From Mycobacterium botniense (GTDB taxonomy: Bacteria; Actinomycetota; Actinomycetes; Mycobacteriales; Mycobacteriaceae), in NCBI RefSeq assembly GCF_010723305.1, contig NZ_BLKW01000004.1:310001-374000 (forward strand): DNA of 64,000 nucleotides. Reading direction: 5' to 3'. A program made the translations under genes and the position numbers. Of the stretch, positions 1,266 to 39,827 are shown in pieces (positions within the stretch are counted from its first letter, which is position 1; each line of letters opens with the position of its first letter). Below the pieces are notes generated by a model. It saw only the letters and a program-made list of their open reading frames with translations. It was not told the origin of the DNA and did not search any database.

Positions 1266-1907
1266 TCAGGGCAGCCCGGACAGAGGCAGGAGCAGGGCGT
1301 CGCGCGCGGCGGCGGGTGCTGCACCCGGAGCAGCCGCGGCAACCGTGGCCGGTGGGGTCGCGCCCCGCGCGCCCGGCATGCCGCCCGACGCGATCGACAA
1401 CAGATCGCCCGGGAACGACACCTGCTGGGGCAGCGGTACTGGCAGGAACGGCAGCTGTGGCAGGTCAACCTTCGCCGAAGGCAGCAACTGATTCGATCCG
1501 GCGGCCGGGACCGTGGTGGTCGCGCCCGGGATGACCGATGTCGTGGCCGGCAGACCCGTCGTCGCCCCGGGAAGTACCGACGTCATCCCGGGCATCGCAG
1601 CAGGCGTTCCGGGCAGGCCCACCGGCGTGCCGGGCAGCGTTCCCGGCTGCGGCACACTGATCGCGGCGCTGGCCAACGGCGGCGGCGTTTGAGGTACCGG
1701 CGGCGGGGCACCTAAGGCGGTTGCGAGGTTCTGCAGCATCTGCGGGGCCCTAACGGCCGTGTTCGCGAGCTGTTCCCCGACGTTGGGGACTGGTGCCGGC
1801 GCCGCCGGGTCGGCGTGGGCTGTGCCCATCAGCCCGCCTGCGAGGAGTGCGGCTGACGATCCCACGACGACGATGGTGGGGCGCAATAACGTCCACGGTG
1901 TTGGCAT
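1266..1907 (-). CDS. Secreted Ala/Pro-rich protein (Rv1158c-like)
   Basis: 213 residues from ATG 1907, chosen over a longer frame to 1973 because AGGGAG lies just upstream and the protein then begins with a proper signal peptide (residues 1-32, ending in Ala-His-Ala before DPAAPAP). The mature part contains imperfect repeats of the form LPGxxxxLP or MPGxTSVLPGAT at about residues 85-135, then Pro/Ala-rich sequence to the end. It corresponds to Rv1158c. It is exported, probably unstructured and possibly cell-wall associated; no function is known. It shares the 162-base upstream gap with the divergent pimE. Confidence 0.83.
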   Translation of the reverse strand: MPTPWTLLRPTIVVVGSSAALLAGGLMGTAHADPAAPAPVPNVGEQLANTAVRAPQMLQNLATALGAPPPVPQTPPPLASAAISVPQPGTLPGTPVGLPGTPAAMPGMTSVLPGATTGLPATTSVIPGATTTVPAAGSNQLLPSAKVDLPQLPFLPVPLPQQVSFPGDLLSIASGGMPGARGATPPATVAAAAPGAAPAAARDALLLPLSGLP

Positions 1908-2069
1908 GATTCTCCCTAGGTCTCGACGACAGGTCCCAGGGCCGATCGTTCGCCTGTGGTCAAAGTGACTCAAGTGACACGTGTGGCGGTTATTCGATCG
2001 TTACGCACCCGAGCGGTGACGGTGACCGGCCTGCCGGCGCCCGGTTGCGCCGTTCGCGCAACCGAGAGC

Positions 2070-3380
2070 ATGACCCGTGACGAGTTAAGCCCTAAAGTCG
2101 GAGAAATCGACACCACCTCGGCCGCCCCGGCGGCACCACTCATCCGCCGGCAGGCGGTCGCATGGGACGCTGCCGCGCCGCTGGTGTTGGCCCTCAGCAT
2201 CGCGGCGCGTCTGGCCTGGACATATCTCGCGCCGAACGGCGCGAACTTCGTCGATCTGCATGTCTACATTGGTGGCGCAGCCACCATTGACCATCCCGAC
2301 ACGCTCTACAGCTATGTCTACGCCGACCAGACACCGGATTTTCCCCTGCCGTTTACTTACCCGCCGTTCGCGGCGGTTGTCTTCTACCCACTGCACCTGC
2401 TGCCGTTCGGGGTAGTGGCTTTTGCCTGGCAGATCGGAACCATGGCCGCGCTATACGGCGTGGTGCGAATCAGCCAGCGTCTGCTCGGTATCCCGGCCGG
2501 CCGCGGTCAGCGTGCTGCGATGCTATGGACGGCGGTCAGCATCTGGATCGAGCCGCTGCGGGGCACATTCGACTACGGGCAGGTCAATGTGCCGCTGGTG
2601 CTGGCCGTCCTGTGGGCCGCCTACAGCCTGCGGTGGTGGGTATCGGGCCTGTTGATCGGCCTCGCCGCGGGGGTGAAATTGACACCGGCGATCGCCGGCG
2701 TGTACTTGGTCGGTGTCCGCCGGTGGGGCGCGGCGGTATTTTCCGCCGCGGTGTTTGTGGCCAGCGTCGCGGTGTCGGCCCTGGTAGTCGGCGACCAGGC
2801 CCGCTACTACTTCACCCACCTGCTGGGTGACACCCACCGGGTGGGGCCGGTCGAAACATCGGTCAACCAATCCTGGCGCGGCGGTATCTCCCGTATTTTC
2901 GGCCATGATGCCGGCTATGGCCCGTTGGTCTTGGCCGCGCTTGCGCTCACCGCGATCATCGCGGTCGCCGCTTGGCGAGCACTCGACGGCATCAGAACCG
3001 GTGAGGCCACCCAACCCGACCGGCTGGGCAAACTGCTGGTGGTCGAATTGTTCGGGCTGCTGCTCTCACCGATTTCGTGGACGCACCACTGGGTGTGGCT
3101 GGTGCCGTTGATGATCTGGCTCATTCACGGGCCGCTGCGCGAACGTCGCGGCGCGCGGATCCTGGGCTGGGGGTGGCTTGTGCTGACCATCATCGGTGTG
3201 CCGTGGTTGCTCAGCTTCGCCCAACCGACCATTTGGCAAGCTGGACGCCCGTGGTATCTGGCCTGGGGTGGGCTCGTCTATATCGTGGCGACGCTGGCGA
3301 CTTTGACCTGGATCGCCGCGGCGAGGGGTCGCAGCGCCGGGTCAGGCACGACACCGGTGACAATGGCAACGGTGTGCTAG
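2070..3380 (+). CDS. pimE: Polyprenol-phosphate-mannose alpha-1,2-mannosyltransferase PimE
   Basis: A multi-spanning GT-C glycosyltransferase that adds the fifth mannose in an alpha-1,2 link to phosphatidylinositol mannosides at the plasma membrane, giving the polar PIMs. The start at ATG 2070 gives 436 residues, close to the roughly 430 of the family; an upstream GTG at 1956 would add 38 unlikely residues. The first periplasmic loop holds the motif NFVDLHVY, in which D62 matches the essential GT-C aspartate (D58 in M. smegmatis PimE). About ten hydrophobic helices follow. The stop codon shares a CTAG palindrome with the stop of convergent phhB. lpqW, which controls PIM/LAM balance, is also in this window. 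Confidence 0.93.
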
Positions 3381-3661
3381 GTGCCGAGCATCTCGTTGAT
3401 GTCGCGTGCCATTGCGATGTCGTTTTCGGTAATACCGCCCGCTGAATGGGTGACCAACGAAAAAGTCACCGTCCGCCAACGGATATCGATATCGGGATGA
3501 TGATTTTTCGCTTCGGCGTGCTCGGCCACCCGGCGTACCGCGTCGATACCCGCCATAAACGACGGGAACTTGATCGACCGGCGCAGGACGCCTTCGGCGC
3601 GCGTCCAGCCGGTCAGGGCGGGCAGTGCGGCGTCTACTTGCTCATCCGATAACACAGCCAT
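3377..3661 (-). CDS. phhB: Pterin-4a-carbinolamine dehydratase
   Basis: 94 residues from ATG 3661; the longer frame to 3694 lacks a credible start. The PCD signature is clear: [13 protein letters not shown] near residues 50-62 carries the catalytic His pair, followed by [14 protein letters not shown]. The family dehydrates 4a-hydroxy-tetrahydropterin or acts as a DcoH-type protein; its role in mycobacteria is unproven, since no phenylalanine hydroxylase is evident here. It matches Rv1159A. A TACCGT hexamer six bases before ATG suggests a leaderless transcript from a promoter that overlaps the mutT2 promoter on the other strand. Confidence 0.9.
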
Positions 3662-3666
3662 ACACC

Positions 3667-3680
3667 GACGGTATACCGTC
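3667..3680. promoter_or_regulatory. 14-bp perfect palindrome between phhB and mutT2
   Basis: GACGGTATACCGTC is identical to its reverse complement. It lies in the 26-base gap between the divergent start codons. On each strand it provides TACCGT, a TANNNT-type -10 hexamer, six bases before the phhB ATG and eight bases before the mutT2 ATG. This looks like two overlapping, back-to-back -10 elements giving leaderless transcripts in both directions. It could also be a repressor site. Confidence 0.55.
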
Positions 3681-3687
3681 ACTGACC

Positions 3688-4077
3688 ATGCCAAACCAGA
3701 TCGTTGTGGCCGGCGCGATCATCTGCGGCTCTGCGGTCTTGCTGGCCCAGCGGCGTCGGCCACCGGAATTGGCGGGGCGGTGGGAGTTACCCGGTGGCAA
3801 GGTGGCGCCCGGCGAGACCGACCGCGCCGCGCTGGCCCGTGAATTGGCCGAGGAGTTGGGCCTTGAGGTCGTGGTAGGTGCGCGCCTGGGCGACGACGTT
3901 GCCCTCGACGGAACGATGACGCTTCGCGCGTACCGGGTGCGGGTGATCCGGGGTCAACCGCATCCACGCGACCACTGCGCGCTACGGTGGGTGACCGCGG
4001 CCGAACTTCCCGACATCGATTGGGTTCCGGCCGATCGCGAGTGGTTGGCACAGTTGACCGAAGCCCTCACCACGTGA
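3688..4077 (+). CDS. mutT2: Nudix NTP pyrophosphohydrolase MutT2
   Basis: 129 residues from ATG 3688; the family is about 140. The Nudix box runs from GGKVAPGET to RELAEELGL (about residues 36-59) with the RELxEELG core intact. Members cleave nucleoside triphosphates to the monophosphate plus pyrophosphate; the M. tuberculosis protein is described as preferring cytidine nucleotides, which suggests pool cleaning. It is the Rv1160 orthologue by order and sequence. The start is set by the conserved beginning [11 protein letters not shown] and by the divergent promoter that it shares with phhB. Confidence 0.9.
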
Positions 4078-4543
4078 TCAGTCACGACACCCGGTCGCAG
4101 ACAAGACGAGGCTCGAGACGCACAGAATTCTTGCAGACAAGTCACAGCATATGCGAAGGTCGGCGCGATGAAATTCTATGGTGGGCTTCCCATTACACAG
4201 ATAGTCAAATCATTGACGCGGAATTGGCATCGCGCTAGTAGAAAAGATGATTTTCGGCCACATATGGGTACGGACGATGGCCTATGGCGTGCGATGAGCG
4301 CGGCGTGTGCTCGCCGGATTTACGCGGAACAGCGGCAGTGTCGCACGCGCTAGCATGCCGGGCCGCAGCATCTATGCTTTATGGGCTGTTGTCGACACGC
4401 ATGTGGGCTGACGGTGTGGTCGGCCCCGCACTGATGGTGACCGGCCGGGTCGCGCCGTCGGCTGGTCTGCGATACACCGTGACAGGGCTGCGCGCTCACG
4501 GCGGGCGACGAGACGCTCCGCCGGCTGTTAAGGAGGTCTTTGT
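4078..4543 (+). promoter_or_regulatory. narG upstream region with AT-rich core and candidate promoter
   Basis: 466 bases without a convincing gene. The part from about 4165 to 4270 is visibly AT-richer than its surroundings. In it, TTGACG at 4213-4218 and TAGTAG at 4236-4241 are 17 bases apart, a plausible sigma-A-type promoter that would leave a leader of about 300 bases before narG. TAAGGAGG at 4529-4536, seven bases before the TTG start, is a very strong ribosome site. I did not recognise a specific regulator site. The long leader leaves room for post-transcriptional control, which is inference. Confidence 0.35.
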
Positions 4544-7500
4544 TTGACCACGACACCCCACGTTGGCGGACCTCTCGAGGAGTTGCTTGAGCGCAGTGGC
4601 CGCTTCTTCACCCCCGGCGAGTTCTCCACAGACCTGCGCACTGTCACCCGCCGCGGCGGGAGGGATGCAGATGTTTTTTATCGCGACCGCTGGAGCCACG
4701 ACAAAGTAGTGCGCTCGACCCACGGGGTCAACTGCACTGGGTCGTGCTCGTGGAAGATCTACGTCAAAGACGGCATCATCACGTGGGAAACGCAGCAGAC
4801 CGATTACCCGTCGGTGGGACCTGACCGGCCCGAATACGAACCGCGCGGCTGCCCGCGGGGCGCGTCGTTCTCCTGGTACAGCTACTCGCCGACCCGCGTG
4901 CGCTACCCCTATGCCCGCGGTGTGCTCGTGGAAATGTTCCGGGAAGCCAAAGCCCGACTCGGCGACCCGGTGCTGGCCTGGGCCGATATCCAGGCCGACC
5001 CCGAGCGTCGCCGCCGCTACCAGCGGGCCCGTGGTAAAGGCGGCCTGGTGCGGGTGACCTGGGCCGAAGCCACCGAAATGATCGCCGCAGCCCATGTGCA
5101 CACCATCAAGACCTACGGGCCCGACAGGATCGCCGGATTTTCCCCGATCCCGGCGATGTCGATGGTCAGTCACGCCGCGGGCTGCCGGTTCGTCGAGTTG
5201 ATCGGCGGCGCGATGGTTTCGTTCTACGACTGGTACGCGGATTTGCCGGTGGCCTCGCCGCAGGTGTTTGGTGATCAGACCGACGTACCGGAATCCGGGG
5301 ACTGGTGGGACGCCGCGTATCTGGTGATGTGGGGTTCCAATGTCCCGATCACCCGGACACCCGACGCGCACTGGATGGCCGAGGCCCGTTACCGCGGAAC
5401 CAAAGTTGTTGTCGTCAGCCCCGATTACGCCGATAACACCAAGTTCGCCGACGAGTGGATGCCGTGCGCTGCGGGTACTGACGCAGCGCTGGCCATGGCC
5501 ATGGGCCACGTAATACTCACCGAATGTTACGTGCGCAAACAGGTTCCGTTCTTCGTCGACTATGTGCGCCGCTACACAGATCTGCCGTTTTTGATCAAGC
5601 TGGAAAAGCGCGGGGACGCGCTGGTACCCGGGAAGTTTCTCACCGCCGCTGACATCGGTCAGGAGGTCGAGAACGCGGCGTTCAAACCCGCACTGCTGGA
5701 TGAGGTCACCGACACCGTCGTGGTGCCCCATGGCTCGCTGGGATTCCGCTACGGCGAAGACGGTGTGGGTAAGTGGAACCTTGACTTGGGTGAGGTGGTC
5801 CCGGCGCTCAGTGCCCAACGTGTCAGCGGCGCCGACAGCGAGACGGCGCTGGTCGCACTGCCCAGCTTCGATACGGTCGACGGGCACGGCGAAACGGTGA
5901 CGCGGGGGGTTCCGGTACGCCGTGTTGGAAAGCATTTGGTGTGCACGGTCTTTGACTTGATGCTTGCCCACTACGGGGTGATGCGCCCGGGGCTGCCCGG
6001 CCAGTGGCCCACCGGCTATGACGATCCCAGTCAGCCGAACACCCCGGCCTGGCAGGAGCCGATCACCGGGGTATCGGCCGCGCAGGCGATCCGCATCGCC
6101 CGGGAATTCGCTCGCAGCGCGGAGGAATCCGGCGGGCGGTCGATGGTGATCATGGGCGGCGGGATCTGCCACTGGTTCCACGGGGACGCCACCTATCGGT
6201 CGGTGCTTACGCTGCTGCTGCTGACCGGGTCGATGGGACGCAACGGCGGGGGTTGGGCCCATTACGTCGGCCAGGAGAAGATCCGGCCGCTGACTGGGTG
6301 GCAGACGATGGCGATGGCCAGCGACTGGTCGCGCCCCCCGCGGCAGGTGCCCGGCGCCTCCTACTGGTATACCCACACCGACCAGTGGCGCTACGACGCC
6401 TACGGAGCGGACAAGCTGGCCAGCCCGGTGGGACGCGGCCGGTTCGCCGGCAAGCACACGATCGACCTGCTGGCTTCCGCGGTGGCAATGGGGTGGAGCC
6501 CGTTTTATCCGCAATTCGACCGCTCCAGCCTCGACGTCGCCGACGAGGCCCGTGCGGCCGGTCGTGAGGTCGGCGAATACGTTGGCGAGCAGCTGGCGGC
6601 GGGGACACTGAAACTGTCGATCACCGATCCTGACAACCCGGTCAACTGGCCGCGGGTGCTCACGGTGTGGCGAGCCAACCTGATCGGTTCATCAGGAAAG
6701 GGCGGGGAATACTTCCTGCGGCACCTCCTGGGCACCGACTCCGACATCCAGTGCGATCCGCCGGCCGGTGGGGTGCGGCCCGGTGTTGTCGCCTGCGATG
6801 GGGACATTCCGGACGGAAAACTGGATCTGTTGTTGTCGCTCGACTTCCGGATGACGTCGACGACTTTGGTGTCGGACGTGGTGCTGCCCGCGGCGACCTG
6901 GTACGAGAAGGCCGACTTGTCCAGCACCGACATGCATCCGTATGTGCATGCGTTCAGTCCGGCGATCGACCCTCCATGGGAAACGCGTTCGGACTTCGAA
7001 GCATTCGGTGCTATTGCCCGCGCTTTCAGCGCGTTGGCCAAGCGGCATTTAGGCACTCGCAGTGACGTGGTACTGACCGCGTTGTTGCATGACACCCCGG
7101 ACGCGATGACGTATGCCGATGGTGCCGAACATGATTGGCTGCGTACCGGGGAAGTTCCGGTCGCCGGAAGGACTATGGGCAAGCTCGCTGTGGTGGAGCG
7201 CGACTACGGCGCGATCTATGACAAGTGGGTGACGCTGGGACCGTTGGTGGAAAAGTTCGGGCTGACCACCAAGGGTTTCACCGTGCATCCTTTCCGGGAG
7301 GTCGACGAGCTATCGGCGAAATTCGGGGTGATGAATTCCGGTGCGGCGGCGGGCCGTCCGGCTATTACCACGGCCCAGCGGATGGCCGATGTGATACTGG
7401 CGCTGTCGGGGACATGCAACGGCCGGCTCGCGGTCGAAGGTTTCCGGGAGCTGGAAAAACGCACCGGCCAGCGACTGGCGCACCTGGCCGAAGGCAGTGA

Positions 7501-34622: not shown

Positions 34623-34639
<17 letters not shown>
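34590..34639. repeat. 9-bp inverted repeat between transposase fragments
   Basis: GGGTAATTT at 34590-34598 and AAATTACCC at 34631-34639 are perfect inverted copies, 32 bases apart. They lie between the two convergent ISL3 remnants, at the point where the minus-strand transposase loses its homology. This could be the end of a third element or a stem formed by chance. Confidence 0.35.
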
Positions 34640-36049
<1,410 letters not shown>

Positions 36050-36089: not shown

Positions 36090-37640
36090 TCAATCAGAGT
36101 TAGGCCAGTCCGGCGGCAAGCCAAATAGACTGGCCGCCGTCGCGGACGCATCAGTGCGAGCCAGCTTGCCGTCGTCGCCGACCACTACTGTTGCGAAAGG
36201 TGGCAACGAAGGCATAGAGTTCACTGCCCACGGGTTGATCCACAGTTCGGGCAGTTTGGATGCGACCGACCAGGCCCGCATTGCATCGCCGAACAGTACA
36301 GCCGATATCCGGCTCCCGCGGGGATCTGCCCCGGGGCGCCAATACCCGTCGGGTGTGTGTACAAAATGAGCCTCGTCTAGGTTATCCCGAGGTACCGCGA
36401 GCTTTATTGACCCGAAAAGCGCCTCCCTCAAATCGTCTTTATGGATAGAGTTCCAGGTTGTGATCGCAACGACAAGCGGCCTATCGGGTGTGTTATATTT
36501 TCCGCCCTTTTTGTTCAGAGTCTTCCTTAGTTGCTCAACGTCCTTACCGAATTGAGCTGGTTTTGTTGGGTAAATCGCGATCAAACGCCGAGGAGTGCCG
36601 CGACGATCAGGTCGCACGGGCACAGCGGTATAGTCAAGGATCCAGTCACCGGCAGTTAGCTGAGTATGCGGTAATGGGTGCCCCGCGGCCTGTTCAGCTA
36701 TGACGCGGTCAGCATCCAGGCTTGCGAGCCACTTCTCGAGTGGAGCGATGATGTCCCGTGCCCGGGGACGCTGCTTGCCCGGCGAACGTATCTCGAGGTC
36801 GACCATAAAGTCGGGGTTTTTGGCGTCGTTAACGCAGTCACACACCCAGTTCCAGGCATCCGAGTCGAGTTCGCCGTTGAACATCACCGCCGCTTCGACG
36901 TACATGCTTGACGAACCTTTGGTGACAAGGAAATCCGGTTTGTTGTTACTGCCGGACAGTTCTGGGTGGACCTTAATGTCGTATCCGAGGCAATCGAAGA
37001 GAGTGAATACGTACAGCTCCCACCATGCGGGAAGGTGTTGCCGCACGTCGGCCTTCCTCAGGCGACTGACCAGGCCTGGCTTGTGCTCCTCGGGAAAGGC
37101 TGCGTAGCAGATCTCAAGGTGATCTCGTACCCGATCCCAGAGTGCGCCGGCGCGGCGGTCCAGGAACGCGAATGTCGACTCAAGATGGCGCGCTGGTTTG
37201 TCGTCAAACCGAGTGAATTCATCGAACAGCTTCCCACTCGCGACGGCGGGCGCCACCGTGTCGGATAGTTGGCTGATTCGCTGTGGTGAGACTTCGAGCA
37301 GTTCGCCGGCGTCACGCACCGGAATCCCTGCGCTGACAAGCTCGTTCGCCAATGCTTCGGTTAGATCCTGGGCCTTCCTGGTTGCGATGGCGGCGCGCTC
37401 GCGCATATCGATGATGTCCTGTGCAGCTTCGTGAACGTCCCCGCACCCAGGCACGGTGATGCTGGAGACCTGCACGGAGACGTCGTCCAGAGGTGTTCCG
37501 GTGGTTACCGCGATCCACTCGCGGCCCATCAATTTGGCTTCGGATAGCCGTCGTGCCTGGGTTAAGCCATTCAGCTCGGGAACACGAACCATCCACCAGC
37601 GGCCGTCGCGTACGATCTCAATCTTGTATTCGCTCGTCAT
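36090..37640 (-). CDS. HicB-like antitoxin domain fused to a PD-(D/E)XK-like nuclease domain
   Basis: 516 residues. Residues 1-60 resemble the HicB partial RNase-H fold (YKIEIVRDGRWWMVRVPELN). A helix-turn-helix follows at about 96-128 (IPVRDAGELLEVSPQRISQL). From about 150 a separate domain begins. WWELYVFTLFDCLGYDIKVHP (207-226), KPDFLV with D236, and YVEAAV with E249 follow the alpha-D-E order of PD-(D/E)XK nucleases, although Ala replaces the usual Lys. The end, with LVVAITTW, ALFG and RISAVLF, resembles stand-alone actinobacterial proteins of this type. ATG overlaps the upstream hicA-like stop by four bases. HicB antitoxins are normally 70-150 residues, so the added 390 residues are unusual. 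The assignment is by eye. Confidence 0.72.
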   Translation of the reverse strand: MTSEYKIEIVRDGRWWMVRVPELNGLTQARRLSEAKLMGREWIAVTTGTPLDDVSVQVSSITVPGCGDVHEAAQDIIDMRERAAIATRKAQDLTEALANELVSAGIPVRDAGELLEVSPQRISQLSDTVAPAVASGKLFDEFTRFDDKPARHLESTFAFLDRRAGALWDRVRDHLEICYAAFPEEHKPGLVSRLRKADVRQHLPAWWELYVFTLFDCLGYDIKVHPELSGSNNKPDFLVTKGSSSMYVEAAVMFNGELDSDAWNWVCDCVNDAKNPDFMVDLEIRSPGKQRPRARDIIAPLEKWLASLDADRVIAEQAAGHPLPHTQLTAGDWILDYTAVPVRPDRRGTPRRLIAIYPTKPAQFGKDVEQLRKTLNKKGGKYNTPDRPLVVAITTWNSIHKDDLREALFGSIKLAVPRDNLDEAHFVHTPDGYWRPGADPRGSRISAVLFGDAMRAWSVASKLPELWINPWAVNSMPSLPPFATVVVGDDGKLARTDASATAASLFGLPPDWPNSD

Positions 37641-37873
37641 TTCCCCTCTTTCGCCTCTTTCTCTTCTTTGGCCAGTCGTTCGGCCTGTGCGATCGCGTTG
37701 TTAATTTGGCGTACGACGCCCGGCGATATCGTGCGGTGCCCGTACGGAATTGAAACCGAGGGCCCGAGCAGGTGGAGCCATTTGGTGTGGCTGCCAGCCG
37801 CATCGGTCGGGCTGAATCTCGATTTGCGAAGCCGCATGGTGATGGTTCTGGCTGGTTCCTCTTTGACCACCAT
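37637..37873 (-). CDS. HicA-like toxin
   Basis: 78 residues. The pattern RTITMRLRKSRF...GSHTKWLH...SVSIPYGHRTISPGVV follows the HicA double-stranded-RNA-binding-like fold, with H29 in GSHTKW as the expected catalytic His of the mRNA-cleaving toxin. A Lys/Glu-rich tail ends the protein. It precedes, and overlaps by ATGA, the HicB-like gene, the usual toxin-first order. ATG 37873 lacks a ribosome site; TAGACT on this strand is three bases before ATG and six before the next codon, GTG 37870, so a leaderless GTG start is possible. Confidence 0.7.
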   Translation of the reverse strand: MVVKEEPARTITMRLRKSRFSPTDAAGSHTKWLHLLGPSVSIPYGHRTISPGVVRQINNAIAQAERLAKEEKEAKEGK

Positions 37874-37876
37874 TTT

Positions 37877-37917
37877 AGTCTAATCAAGTAGACAAATTCT
37901 AGTAAAGCAAGCTAGAC
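37877..37917 (-). promoter_or_regulatory. Candidate hicAB promoter-operator with paired TAGAC motifs
   Basis: An AT-rich 40-base stretch directly upstream of the hicA start. GTCTA (37878-37882) and TAGAC (37889-37893) form an inverted repeat with a 6-base spacer. TCTAG (37898-37902) and CTAGA (37912-37916) form a second, with a 9-base spacer. The left arm on the minus strand reads TAGACT, a TANNNT -10 hexamer. Binding there by the fusion protein's helix-turn-helix would block transcription, the usual autoregulation of hicAB loci. Confidence 0.5.
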
Positions 37918-38121: not shown

Positions 38122-39009
38122 TCAGGTGCGCGCCGGAAAAGACGCGAGGGCCGTTTCCACCTCGTGAAGGTCTCGCTCGTTGCATTGGGCCCAGCGCTGC
38201 TCGTCGGCGTCAAGGTGAGTAAGGAATGCATAGCGGCTGCGGATGGTGGTGATCCAGTCCTTCATACGCACGGGCTTGGTCAGGTAGCCGATGTCTTCTT
38301 GACGGAACTCACGATCGTCCCGCTGCCTGAGGATCTCCTGCGGGTCGACTGGCTTGGTTCCGCGGCCGTCGACTACGACGTCGCGGTAGACCTTGAGCAC
38401 CCAGAGTCGGCGGATGAGGGACTCATCGAGCGCACCCGAGGTTGCGAACCATTGCAGATCGTAGAGGTCTCGTGCCAGCGACACCGGGCGGTAGCGTGCG
38501 AGCTTCTCGGCGACGGCTTCCTCGACGCGGACTACCGGAGTCGGCGACAGAATGAAGTCGTACCTGTCGTGGATCGGCAGCCGCACCGGGTCGAGCAACT
38601 CGGGTGCCAGACTTAGCGCGTGTCGCGCCAACTCTATCTTGGCGCCCAGCTGCGGTCGGCCGAATGGCGTGTCTACCAACAGGTCGCCACGTCGACCGTC
38701 GTCACCGAGATTTTCAATCGCGAAAGTAAAACCTTCGACCTCGACGCCGTCGAGAGCCTGCAGAGCGGCGAGCGCAACCTCCTCATCGGGCGCGGCGAAG
38801 TCGAGGTCGGTCGAGAAACGGCCCGCGTTGCCCGCTCTAAACTTTCGCAGCGCGGTACCGCCCTTGAAAACCAGGCCGCGCGCGAAGAGCCCGGCGTTGT
38901 GAAGCAAATGCAACGCGTGATCCTGGGCGATGTCGAGAAGAGCGGCATCGCGTCCACCCCTGACGCCTTGATAGTGGCGCGCGAGGTGCCCCTCGGTGAT
39001 CCGGGTCAC
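38122..39009 (-). CDS. abiEii: AbiEii nucleotidyltransferase toxin
   Basis: 295 residues, DUF1814/AbiEii family. The nucleotidyltransferase core is clear: FKGGTALRKF (48-57, motif I) and RFSTDLDF with D68 and D70 as metal-binding residues. Farther on, GAKIELARH and EEAVAEKLARYRPVSLARDLYDLQWF give the Lys and Asp motifs of the family. Such toxins transfer nucleotides (to tRNA in characterised mycobacterial MenT homologues) and stop growth, protecting against phage. It overlaps the antitoxin gene by four bases. Confidence 0.9.
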   Translation of the reverse strand: MTRITEGHLARHYQGVRGGRDAALLDIAQDHALHLLHNAGLFARGLVFKGGTALRKFRAGNAGRFSTDLDFAAPDEEVALAALQALDGVEVEGFTFAIENLGDDGRRGDLLVDTPFGRPQLGAKIELARHALSLAPELLDPVRLPIHDRYDFILSPTPVVRVEEAVAEKLARYRPVSLARDLYDLQWFATSGALDESLIRRLWVLKVYRDVVVDGRGTKPVDPQEILRQRDDREFRQEDIGYLTKPVRMKDWITTIRSRYAFLTHLDADEQRWAQCNERDLHEVETALASFPART

Positions 39010-39827
39010 GATCCGGTGCCCACGGTGAGGTATCGGTGCAGCAGAGTGTCATTGACCTTGGTCTCTGCGTCGAAGACACCTGCGCTGGCGACACGCGGTC
39101 CCAGCCAGACCGTCTCTGTCGCTGGGTGGGCCGCGACGATCGCGGCTCGGGCGTCGGTGTTGCCTGCCGACCCGAGAAGGTACGCGGCACGCTGCGCCGC
39201 TGCACGCGGCCTGGTCTGCAGCAAGCCAATGATGGTGTCGACGTCCACGCGCGTGACAGCATCTGGCAGCCACTGACCCAGGCCAGCCACGTCCTTATAG
39301 GCCGACGGGCGTACCGCAATGCCGACGATCAGTCCTTCGAGGTTCCATGACGGCAATCCGTTGACCGTCGTCAGCCCGACCTCGGGCAACTCGATGCGGA
39401 CGTAGCGCCAATCACCGGCGAGTGCCTTAGGAAAGGCTTGCTCGACAGGCAGGGCAACGACCTCCTGTTCCGGCAACCGCTGGGCCAGCCCAAGGAGGGA
39501 TGCCGCCGTTTCCATGGCCAGCACGCCGCGCCAATCGGGGTCCACGGCGCGCTGCGCGCGGAACTCGATGAATCGGTCCCCGGAGCCGTAGGCGCCGCCG
39601 CGCGCTGCAGGGAGGAACTCCCAGGCGTGCCGGGTCCGCAGCTGTCCCAGCCAGCCGCCGCGCTGGAGTTCGTACGCGAGACGCCGGGTCGCCACCTCAT
39701 CGCCATCAACGCCGACTTGGTGCATGACAGTAGCCAGCCGATCTGACGTCACGACCAGGTCGCCGTCGAGTTCGAGCTGCTCGACTACGTCGGCGACCGA
39801 ACGGGGAATGACTCGCGCCACTGTCAT
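39006..39827 (-). CDS. abiEi: AbiEi antitoxin
   Basis: 273 residues. An N-terminal winged-helix domain (about 1-85; note ATRRLAYELQRGGWLGQLR) is followed by the AbiEi C-terminal domain. In type IV systems AbiEi neutralises AbiEii and represses its own promoter by binding inverted repeats. Its start codon lies inside the left arm of a perfect 12-base inverted repeat. A GGTGG ribosome site precedes ATG. Confidence 0.88.
   Translation of the reverse strand: MTVARVIPRSVADVVEQLELDGDLVVTSDRLATVMHQVGVDGDEVATRRLAYELQRGGWLGQLRTRHAWEFLPAARGGAYGSGDRFIEFRAQRAVDPDWRGVLAMETAASLLGLAQRLPEQEVVALPVEQAFPKALAGDWRYVRIELPEVGLTTVNGLPSWNLEGLIVGIAVRPSAYKDVAGLGQWLPDAVTRVDVDTIIGLLQTRPRAAAQRAAYLLGSAGNTDARAAIVAAHPATETVWLGPRVASAGVFDAETKVNDTLLHRYLTVGTGS

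Follow-up and report, generated by a model that had tools for sequence, protein, structure and literature searches.

A predicted PD-(D/E)XK nuclease fused to the HicB antitoxin of a toxin-first hicAB operon in Mycobacterium botniense

Among described toxin–antitoxin (TA) systems, the closest relatives of the locus considered here are the hicAB modules of class 3, characterized by a toxin gene that comes first and overlaps the antitoxin gene, a conserved His in HicA, an antitoxin with a HicB fold and a C-terminal helix-turn-helix (HTH), and a palindromic operator at the promoter (Gerdes, 2024; PMC10865869). The closest described defence proteins are PD-T7-5 and PD-T7-1, phage-defence proteins of E. 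coli of the PD-(D/E)XK type (Vassallo, 2022; PMC9519451), both classed as PD(D/E)XK in a review (PMC10952713); how orphan DNase-like defence proteins sense the phage was stated to be unclear by the authors of the screen (PMC9519451). TA modules that have gained an additional domain or gene and are tied to phage defence are likewise known, namely, CapRel, which fuses the toxin to the antitoxin, and CmdTAC, which adds a chaperone (PMC10865869, PMC9519451), and the coupling of immunity and dormancy is, as a general idea, already in print (PMC3506569).

The window, i.e., the whole 64,000-nucleotide stretch of DNA that was analysed, carries on its minus strand a 78-codon frame (hicA, 37873-37637) followed by a 516-codon frame (the hicB–nuclease fusion gene, 37640-36090), which overlap by the ATGA at 37637-37640. 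Frames and translations were rechecked, and the coordinates, lengths and overlap given in an earlier note on this DNA are all correct. The locus shares the features of class 3 listed above, its operator being a predicted one; unlike class 3, its HicB is extended by about 385 residues that form a domain of the PD-(D/E)XK type, and, unlike CapRel and CmdTAC, it adds to the antitoxin a second, predicted nuclease. We interpret it, with a probability of about 0.58, as a type II, toxin-first hicAB module with an HTH-bearing antitoxin fused in frame, after the HTH, to a complete defence-type PD-(D/E)XK nuclease of predicted activity. This reading draws on the architecture, conservation, common operator, purifying selection and recurrence of antitoxin fusions, all evident at the level of sequence. 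A HicB–nuclease fusion is in none of the 14 HicA classes in the main text of the published classification (PMC10865869), and is undescribed in titles and abstract openings of the open-licence literature, among the matches listed.

The 78-residue product scores 19.9 bits against the Pfam HicA_toxin model, under the cut-off of 27, and only weak matches to solved HicA structures (9svk, E 0.015; 4p78, E 0.016) come from the profile of its relatives. Its identification as HicA, proposed in the earlier note, is borne out by its relatives. Thirteen database proteins match at E ≤ 0.01, including the window's own (P0122), and the 12 others (P0123-P0134) bear PF07927; the homologue from a second genome with the same arrangement, G295, has a Pfam HicA score of 38.9; and His29, present within GSHTKW as had been noted, is invariant in 14/14 aligned HicA sequences. 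With 78 residues and H29, the protein also fits the class, in which HicA is about 60-85 residues long and has a conserved His. Taking all this together, we assign the protein, by its sequence relationships, to the HicA toxins.

For the partner protein, the first 60 residues had been described as HicB-like; the assignment to HicB stands, while the extent does not, as the HicB unit comprises residues 1-128 with an HTH of its own. Its core (residues 1-65, 37446..37640, minus strand) is followed by the HTH region (residues 85-128, 37257..37388, minus strand), where the HTH proper occupies 108-127, with helices 108-115 and 119-127 and with matches to DeoR and HetR, and the HicB half has the partial RNase-H fold of HicB. 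The search with residues 1-130 yielded 185 proteins at E ≤ 1e-3, several of them named HicB by NCBI among the matches listed; their median length of 128.5 aa (118 among the matches listed) is partly set by construction, since the search admits only proteins 0.55-1.75 times as long as 130 aa, and phage HicBs from annotated records, which are independent of that search, have about 127-146 aa. The general statement that HicB antitoxins are small has exceptions, e.g., class 8 HicBs of up to 356 aa (PMC10865869). The window protein, with its 516 aa, does not end at the DNA-binding domain, as HicBs of its class do.

The HTH is followed by a linker (residues 129-136, 37233..37256, minus strand) that joins two ancestral proteins and lies where stand-alone HicBs stop and stand-alone proteins of the nuclease family start. 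An LFD-like motif after the linker also begins most of the ~390-aa relatives among the matches listed. Given this motif and the lengths of stand-alone relatives, HicB reaches its natural end and the second protein has its natural start; the 516-aa protein is, according to these comparisons, two complete proteins joined at their natural ends.

The C-terminal part (residues 137-516, 36090..37232 with the stop codon, minus strand) has the α-β-β-β-α-β core of the PD-(D/E)XK fold, in agreement with the PD-(D/E)XK-like assignment of the earlier note, its start being refined to about residue 137. A check of both halves for structural matches, named in that note, was run and produced fold matches for each of them; Foldseek alone gave no PDB match below 1e-3. 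The AF2 model of the fusion protein has a mean pLDDT of 93.1. Residues E208, D236 and E249, present as had been claimed, lie in the nuclease core (residues 199-286, 36783..37046, minus strand) and make up an acidic metal site of the PD…(D/E) kind, with PD235-236, E249 and E208 near invariant. In the active-site alignment (173 stretches from 172 sequences, some genes being represented twice; only rows with a residue at the given position were counted), E208 is conserved in 166/166 rows, D236 in 167/168, E249 in 169/169, and K378 (codon 36507..36509, minus strand) in 169/171. The canonical Lys of (D/E)-x-K is absent from the window protein, which has Ala251 at this position; the 170 rows contain here A (64), V (41), T (40), I (7), K (7), R (6), L (3), Q (1), and one other residue. 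E-x-K is thus found in seven rows, including one HicB fusion, P0034, which has the canonical E-C-K.

The near-invariant acidic residues argue for a working metal site, and among candidates for a migrated lysine K378 is the best, and it may replace the canonical one. The substitution of Ala for Lys was already a caveat of the earlier note; Ala251 is indeed there, and the caveat is weakened by the near invariance of E208, D236, E249 and K378 and by the seven E-x-K rows. The corresponding alternative is a pseudo-nuclease, that is, a C-terminal domain that binds nucleic acid or oligomerises and does not cut, the module acting through HicA only. The Ala at the canonical position speaks for it, and the Lys is absent from most family members, but all four residues are kept in at least 98% of the rows in which they are covered, and E-x-K persists in P0034 and the other six rows. 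Dead nuclease domains seldom keep their metal ligands, and we regard this alternative as unlikely. Thus, of the proposal that an antitoxin was joined to a nucleic acid-cutting effector, the architecture (HicB, HTH, nuclease fold) is upheld and recurs in a second genome, and cutting is predicted.

Comparison with defence systems places the nuclease part near PD-T7-5 and PD-T7-1. The PADLOC profiles of these systems match 86 and 65, respectively, of the 128 scanned proteins (93 containing the nuclease part, 35 only HicB), with best E-values of 6e-9 and 1.2e-9. In most members scanned, the matches lie around D236 and E249. In the window protein, residues 205-263 align with positions 57-110 of 346 of PD-T7-5 (E 1.7e-4), and residues 207-253 with positions 168-208 of 452 of PD-T7-1 (E 7.7e-4); neither profile matches over its whole length. 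PD-T7-5 and PD-T7-1 are of different length, only ~45-100 residues match in those family members that were inspected individually, and the window member differs from them in its fusion to an antitoxin.

Family members also occur beside other defence and toxin genes. In plasmid pWM98-2 of Acinetobacter baumannii (L122, 2840-7158), a nuclease-family gene annotated as hypothetical starts 3 bp after nucC and is the fifth gene of a CBASS operon that comprises, according to PADLOC, the cyclase, HORMA, TRIP13 and NucC. This link was seen in this one plasmid; of two other Acinetobacter plasmids inspected (15 Acinetobacter records were listed), one lacks the CBASS setting, and the record of the other begins too late to show it. 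In a mycobacterial genome (L102), the nuclease gene lies downstream of a RES toxin gene, separated from it by a single small gene.

The surroundings of the module in the window agree with the earlier description. Directly upstream of hicA, there is an apparently intact AbiE pair (38122-39827, minus strand), consisting of the type IV TA toxin gene abiEii (38122..39009, minus strand; Pfam 69 bits, PADLOC 2.7e-123) and the antitoxin gene abiEi (39006..39827, minus strand; Pfam AbiEi_1, 36.8 bits), both outside the module; hence, one island contains two TA systems arranged head to tail, and this island presumably lies between pruB-like and fadD-like genes. On the other side of the module from AbiE are a C-terminal remnant of hsdM (35404-35853, plus strand), recognised by one PDB sequence match (2okc, E 7.5e-4), with nothing detected by Pfam in its inner open frame, and a fragment of an ISL3-family transposase (34623-35348, minus strand). 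The remnant and the fragment look like signs of a reshuffled defence island. As for a linked DNA methyltransferase, which would be expected of a restriction-modification system, the hsdM remnant is the only trace near the window module, and inspection by eye of six genes next to the fusion in G295, two of them Pfam-scanned, revealed no methylase.

The search with the whole 516-aa protein matched 120 proteins, the query included (7996 candidates scored). Apart from the query, 8/119 are full-length fusions, namely, P0002-P0008 with 62-85% identity to the window protein and P0034 with 39%; a truncated fusion of 193 aa (P0135) is also present among the database proteins. The protein cluster to which the window's fusion belongs has a single member, from one contig, which tells against a widely sequenced pathogen as its source. 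Most other relatives align only with about residues 135-516 and usually have ~390 aa. These stand-alone nucleases (most of P0009-P0119, and L034-L062) belong to the same unnamed family as residues 137-516, with identities of up to 69%; they are devoid of the antitoxin half and mostly have neither HicA nor HicB in the examined flanks. The family is sporadic, occurring in 28/396 genomes of the genus and 10/397 genomes of the order (three of them shared with the genus set), with further loci in Acidobacteria, Chloroflexi, an archaeal MAG and others. Carriage of the fusion or the nuclease by phages was looked for and not found: a search of viral contigs yielded no relative, matches in the phage records listed (30 of 37) were confined to the HicB part, and Foldseek against viral models found nothing below 1e-3.

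The full arrangement is repeated in G295 (L096), where a 71-aa HicA overlaps a 524-aa fusion; the toxin gene comes first and overlaps the fusion gene by four bases in both cases. Conservation of the linkage, which the earlier note had proposed to check, was thus found, in this one other genome only, and within the material covered the intact HicA–fusion pair occurs in only two genomes, the window genome and G295. The flanks of the G295 fusion encode a 266-aa protein without a Pfam match (6668-7468) and a 926-aa AAA/STAND-like NTPase (1744-4524) with matches under the Pfam cut-offs.

Linkage of the whole family to HicAB was considered and rejected. HicA is near the nuclease in 5/103 locus records, which reduce to two distinct places (many records repeat one place), again the window genome and G295, and HicB in 10/103 records from four places; HicA is absent from the examined flanks in 26/28 genomes of the genus with the nuclease family (within 2 kb where the locus reaches). 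In two mycobacterial genomes (L104, 5334-6762; L105, 7378-5506), the nuclease gene is closely preceded by an N-terminal piece of HicB that lacks the HTH and has no HicA with it; this may be a fusion that has split or decayed, or else an intermediate.

The pair of fusions from the window and G295 was used to estimate selection. For the whole fusion, dS is 1.06, dN 0.17 and omega 0.159; for the HicB–HTH segment, 1.05, 0.16 and 0.149; and for the nuclease segment, 1.05, 0.165 and 0.158, respectively, the omega ratios being rough because they come from a single pair with high dS. Among the segments measured, the linker region (129-150) has the highest dN, 0.43; for HicA, dN is 0.28, with dS saturated. 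These values clearly point to purifying selection on both halves. Broken neighbours (the hsdM remnant and the transposase piece), the truncated P0135 and the broken mosaic of locus L059, described below, might have suggested that the fusion is an accidental or decaying read-through, or an assembly artefact; but full-length fusions with 39-85% identity exist in other data sets and in G295, and an omega of 0.16 tells against decay, making this explanation, already largely refuted, scarcely credible.

Two palindromic, operator-like boxes precede hicA. Box 2, GTCTA-N6-TAGAC (37878..37893), just before hicA, overlaps a TAGACT element resembling a -10 box by eye, and box 1, the palindrome GTCTAGCTTGCTTTACTAGA (minus-strand reading), is at 37898..37917; by eye, a second box resembling box 1 is found upstream of most related hicA genes among the loci listed. 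Among the 16 loci with HicA (17 were supplied, and L128 had no HicA match), 11 have an exact GTCTA-N6-TAGAC and 14 have it with at most one mismatch; in 12/16 the end of the box, as reported, is 7-8 bases ahead of the modelled hicA start, while control windows drawn at random (up to 300 per locus) contained none within one mismatch. The window has one site vs. 0.01 expected. In the whole genome (4,335,050 bases) the box occurs at two places only, the promoters of the fusion hicA and of another hicAB (L004), and the reversed box, used as a control, has no site. L004 (contig C2 of the same genome, ~34.2-34.8 kb) is an ordinary hicAB and shares the box with the fusion operon. Read most simply, the HTH of the fusion protein would still repress its own operon and may cross-talk with this ordinary hicAB.

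The box also occurs in phages: it is exact in hicAB of the mycobacteriophages Babsiella and IdentityCrisis, and differs by more than one mismatch in prophiGD102-1; its 14-base form was found in 52 viral stretches, six of which encode HicA alongside. One could imagine from this that the HTH guides the nuclease to phage or prophage DNA entering the cell, wherever such DNA has hicAB operators with this box. However, the two hicA promoters of the host itself carry the box as well, and self-cutting would require protection, none of which is seen. Moreover, fusions with antitoxins of the ribbon-helix-helix (RHH) type, considered next, use another DNA reader, which leaves operator-guided cutting very improbable.

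In P0030 and P0064, the N-terminal region is of the RHH type in place of HicB. Their Pfam RHH_1 scores are weak (17.2 and 15.7 bits vs. the cut-off of 20.5), and both scanned stand-alone RHH relatives pass RHH_1 (2/2). The RHH fusions rest on these two database proteins only, as no such RHH antitoxin is near the nuclease family in any of the 103 locus records. At four loci (L131, 1151-1785; L135, 2108-1492; L136, 1253-1791; L137, 2281-1510) an RHH antitoxin-like gene comes just after a short gene of 82-149 codons for amino acids, as called by script, with no Pfam family in the three scanned; it is a guess from the layout, toxin-first as in hicAB, that the short gene is a toxin, and the pair is perhaps an undescribed toxin-first module. 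One more locus, L059 (9400-10500), is a mosaic, now broken, in which a HigB-like gene (Gp49), a HigA-like HTH (HTH_37), a HicB-type HTH and a nuclease start are combined, which suggests that a further antitoxin type was once joined.

On the tree of the nuclease family, the fusion states require five changes overall, and HicB vs. stand-alone requires three. The topology tests reject a clade uniting P0034 and the remaining HicB fusions (p-AU 5e-11) and likewise one uniting the RHH fusions P0030 and P0064 (p 0.001, with a long branch), and a single origin of P0001-P0008 and L096 is compatible with the data (p 0.549), hence these may have one origin. Fusions of antitoxins to the nuclease family therefore seem to have arisen several times, and what they appear to share is an operon that begins with the toxin gene and closes with the antitoxin gene.

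There are two further interpretations. According to one, which we hold as tentative, the fusion of antitoxin and nuclease is an immune design that recurs: a mobile PD-(D/E)XK family repeatedly settles behind toxin-first TA pairs (HicAB, RHH-type and perhaps HigBA) and fuses to the antitoxin, and TA occupancy triggers the nuclease. Once infection had removed or titrated HicA, or else the complex with the antitoxin, the antitoxin half would activate the nuclease and the freed toxin would arrest the cell, so that a single operon of two genes would mount a response with two nucleases. According to the other, equally doubtful, the nuclease acts as its stand-alone relatives do, HicB providing a promoter, autoregulation and selfish retention, and no signal passing from one half to the other. 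Separate proteins that lack the antitoxin half do exist, with identities of up to 69%, conservation is lowest in the linker among the segments measured, and the position behind nucC suggests hitch-hiking at the tail of an operon; furthermore, since two unrelated kinds of antitoxin, HicB and RHH, are joined to the same nuclease family, no specific interface seems to be needed. Yet co-transcription would suffice for this without a fusion, while fusions have recurred, and omega in the one measured pair is low.

Under the reading we prefer, a hicAB module with an antitoxin fused to a defence nuclease, the HicB part would still mask HicA and repress the operon at the predicted operator. One autoregulated, translationally coupled mRNA would then make both the toxin and the nuclease, the latter in small, TA-controlled amounts, and the cell would be addicted to it. 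The nuclease is likely catalytic and would, upon infection, cut the invading DNA or kill by nucleic-acid damage. If the fusion protein were lost, titrated or shut off, HicA would be set free; HicA would thus both addict the cell to the nuclease and serve as a second, growth-arresting line of defence. When infection lowers or engages the fusion protein, HicA may cleave mRNA and the nuclease may cut nucleic acid. Release of the nuclease by a phage that disturbs HicB, as supposed in the earlier note, may likewise occur.

What keeps single-protein DNase-like defence proteins inactive, and what activates them, was called unclear by the finders of five such systems (PMC9519451). Here, a distant relative is fused to an antitoxin of a well-understood kind, with a conserved operator and a toxin, which makes TA control testable in a two-gene system. 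The fusion adds a class to the catalogue of HicA modules and indicates that TA antitoxins can carry effectors, cases that annotation of antitoxins by length would miss. As similar joinings of antitoxins and nucleases seem to have arisen several times, our results suggest that bacteria can put a nuclease under a toxin–antitoxin switch.
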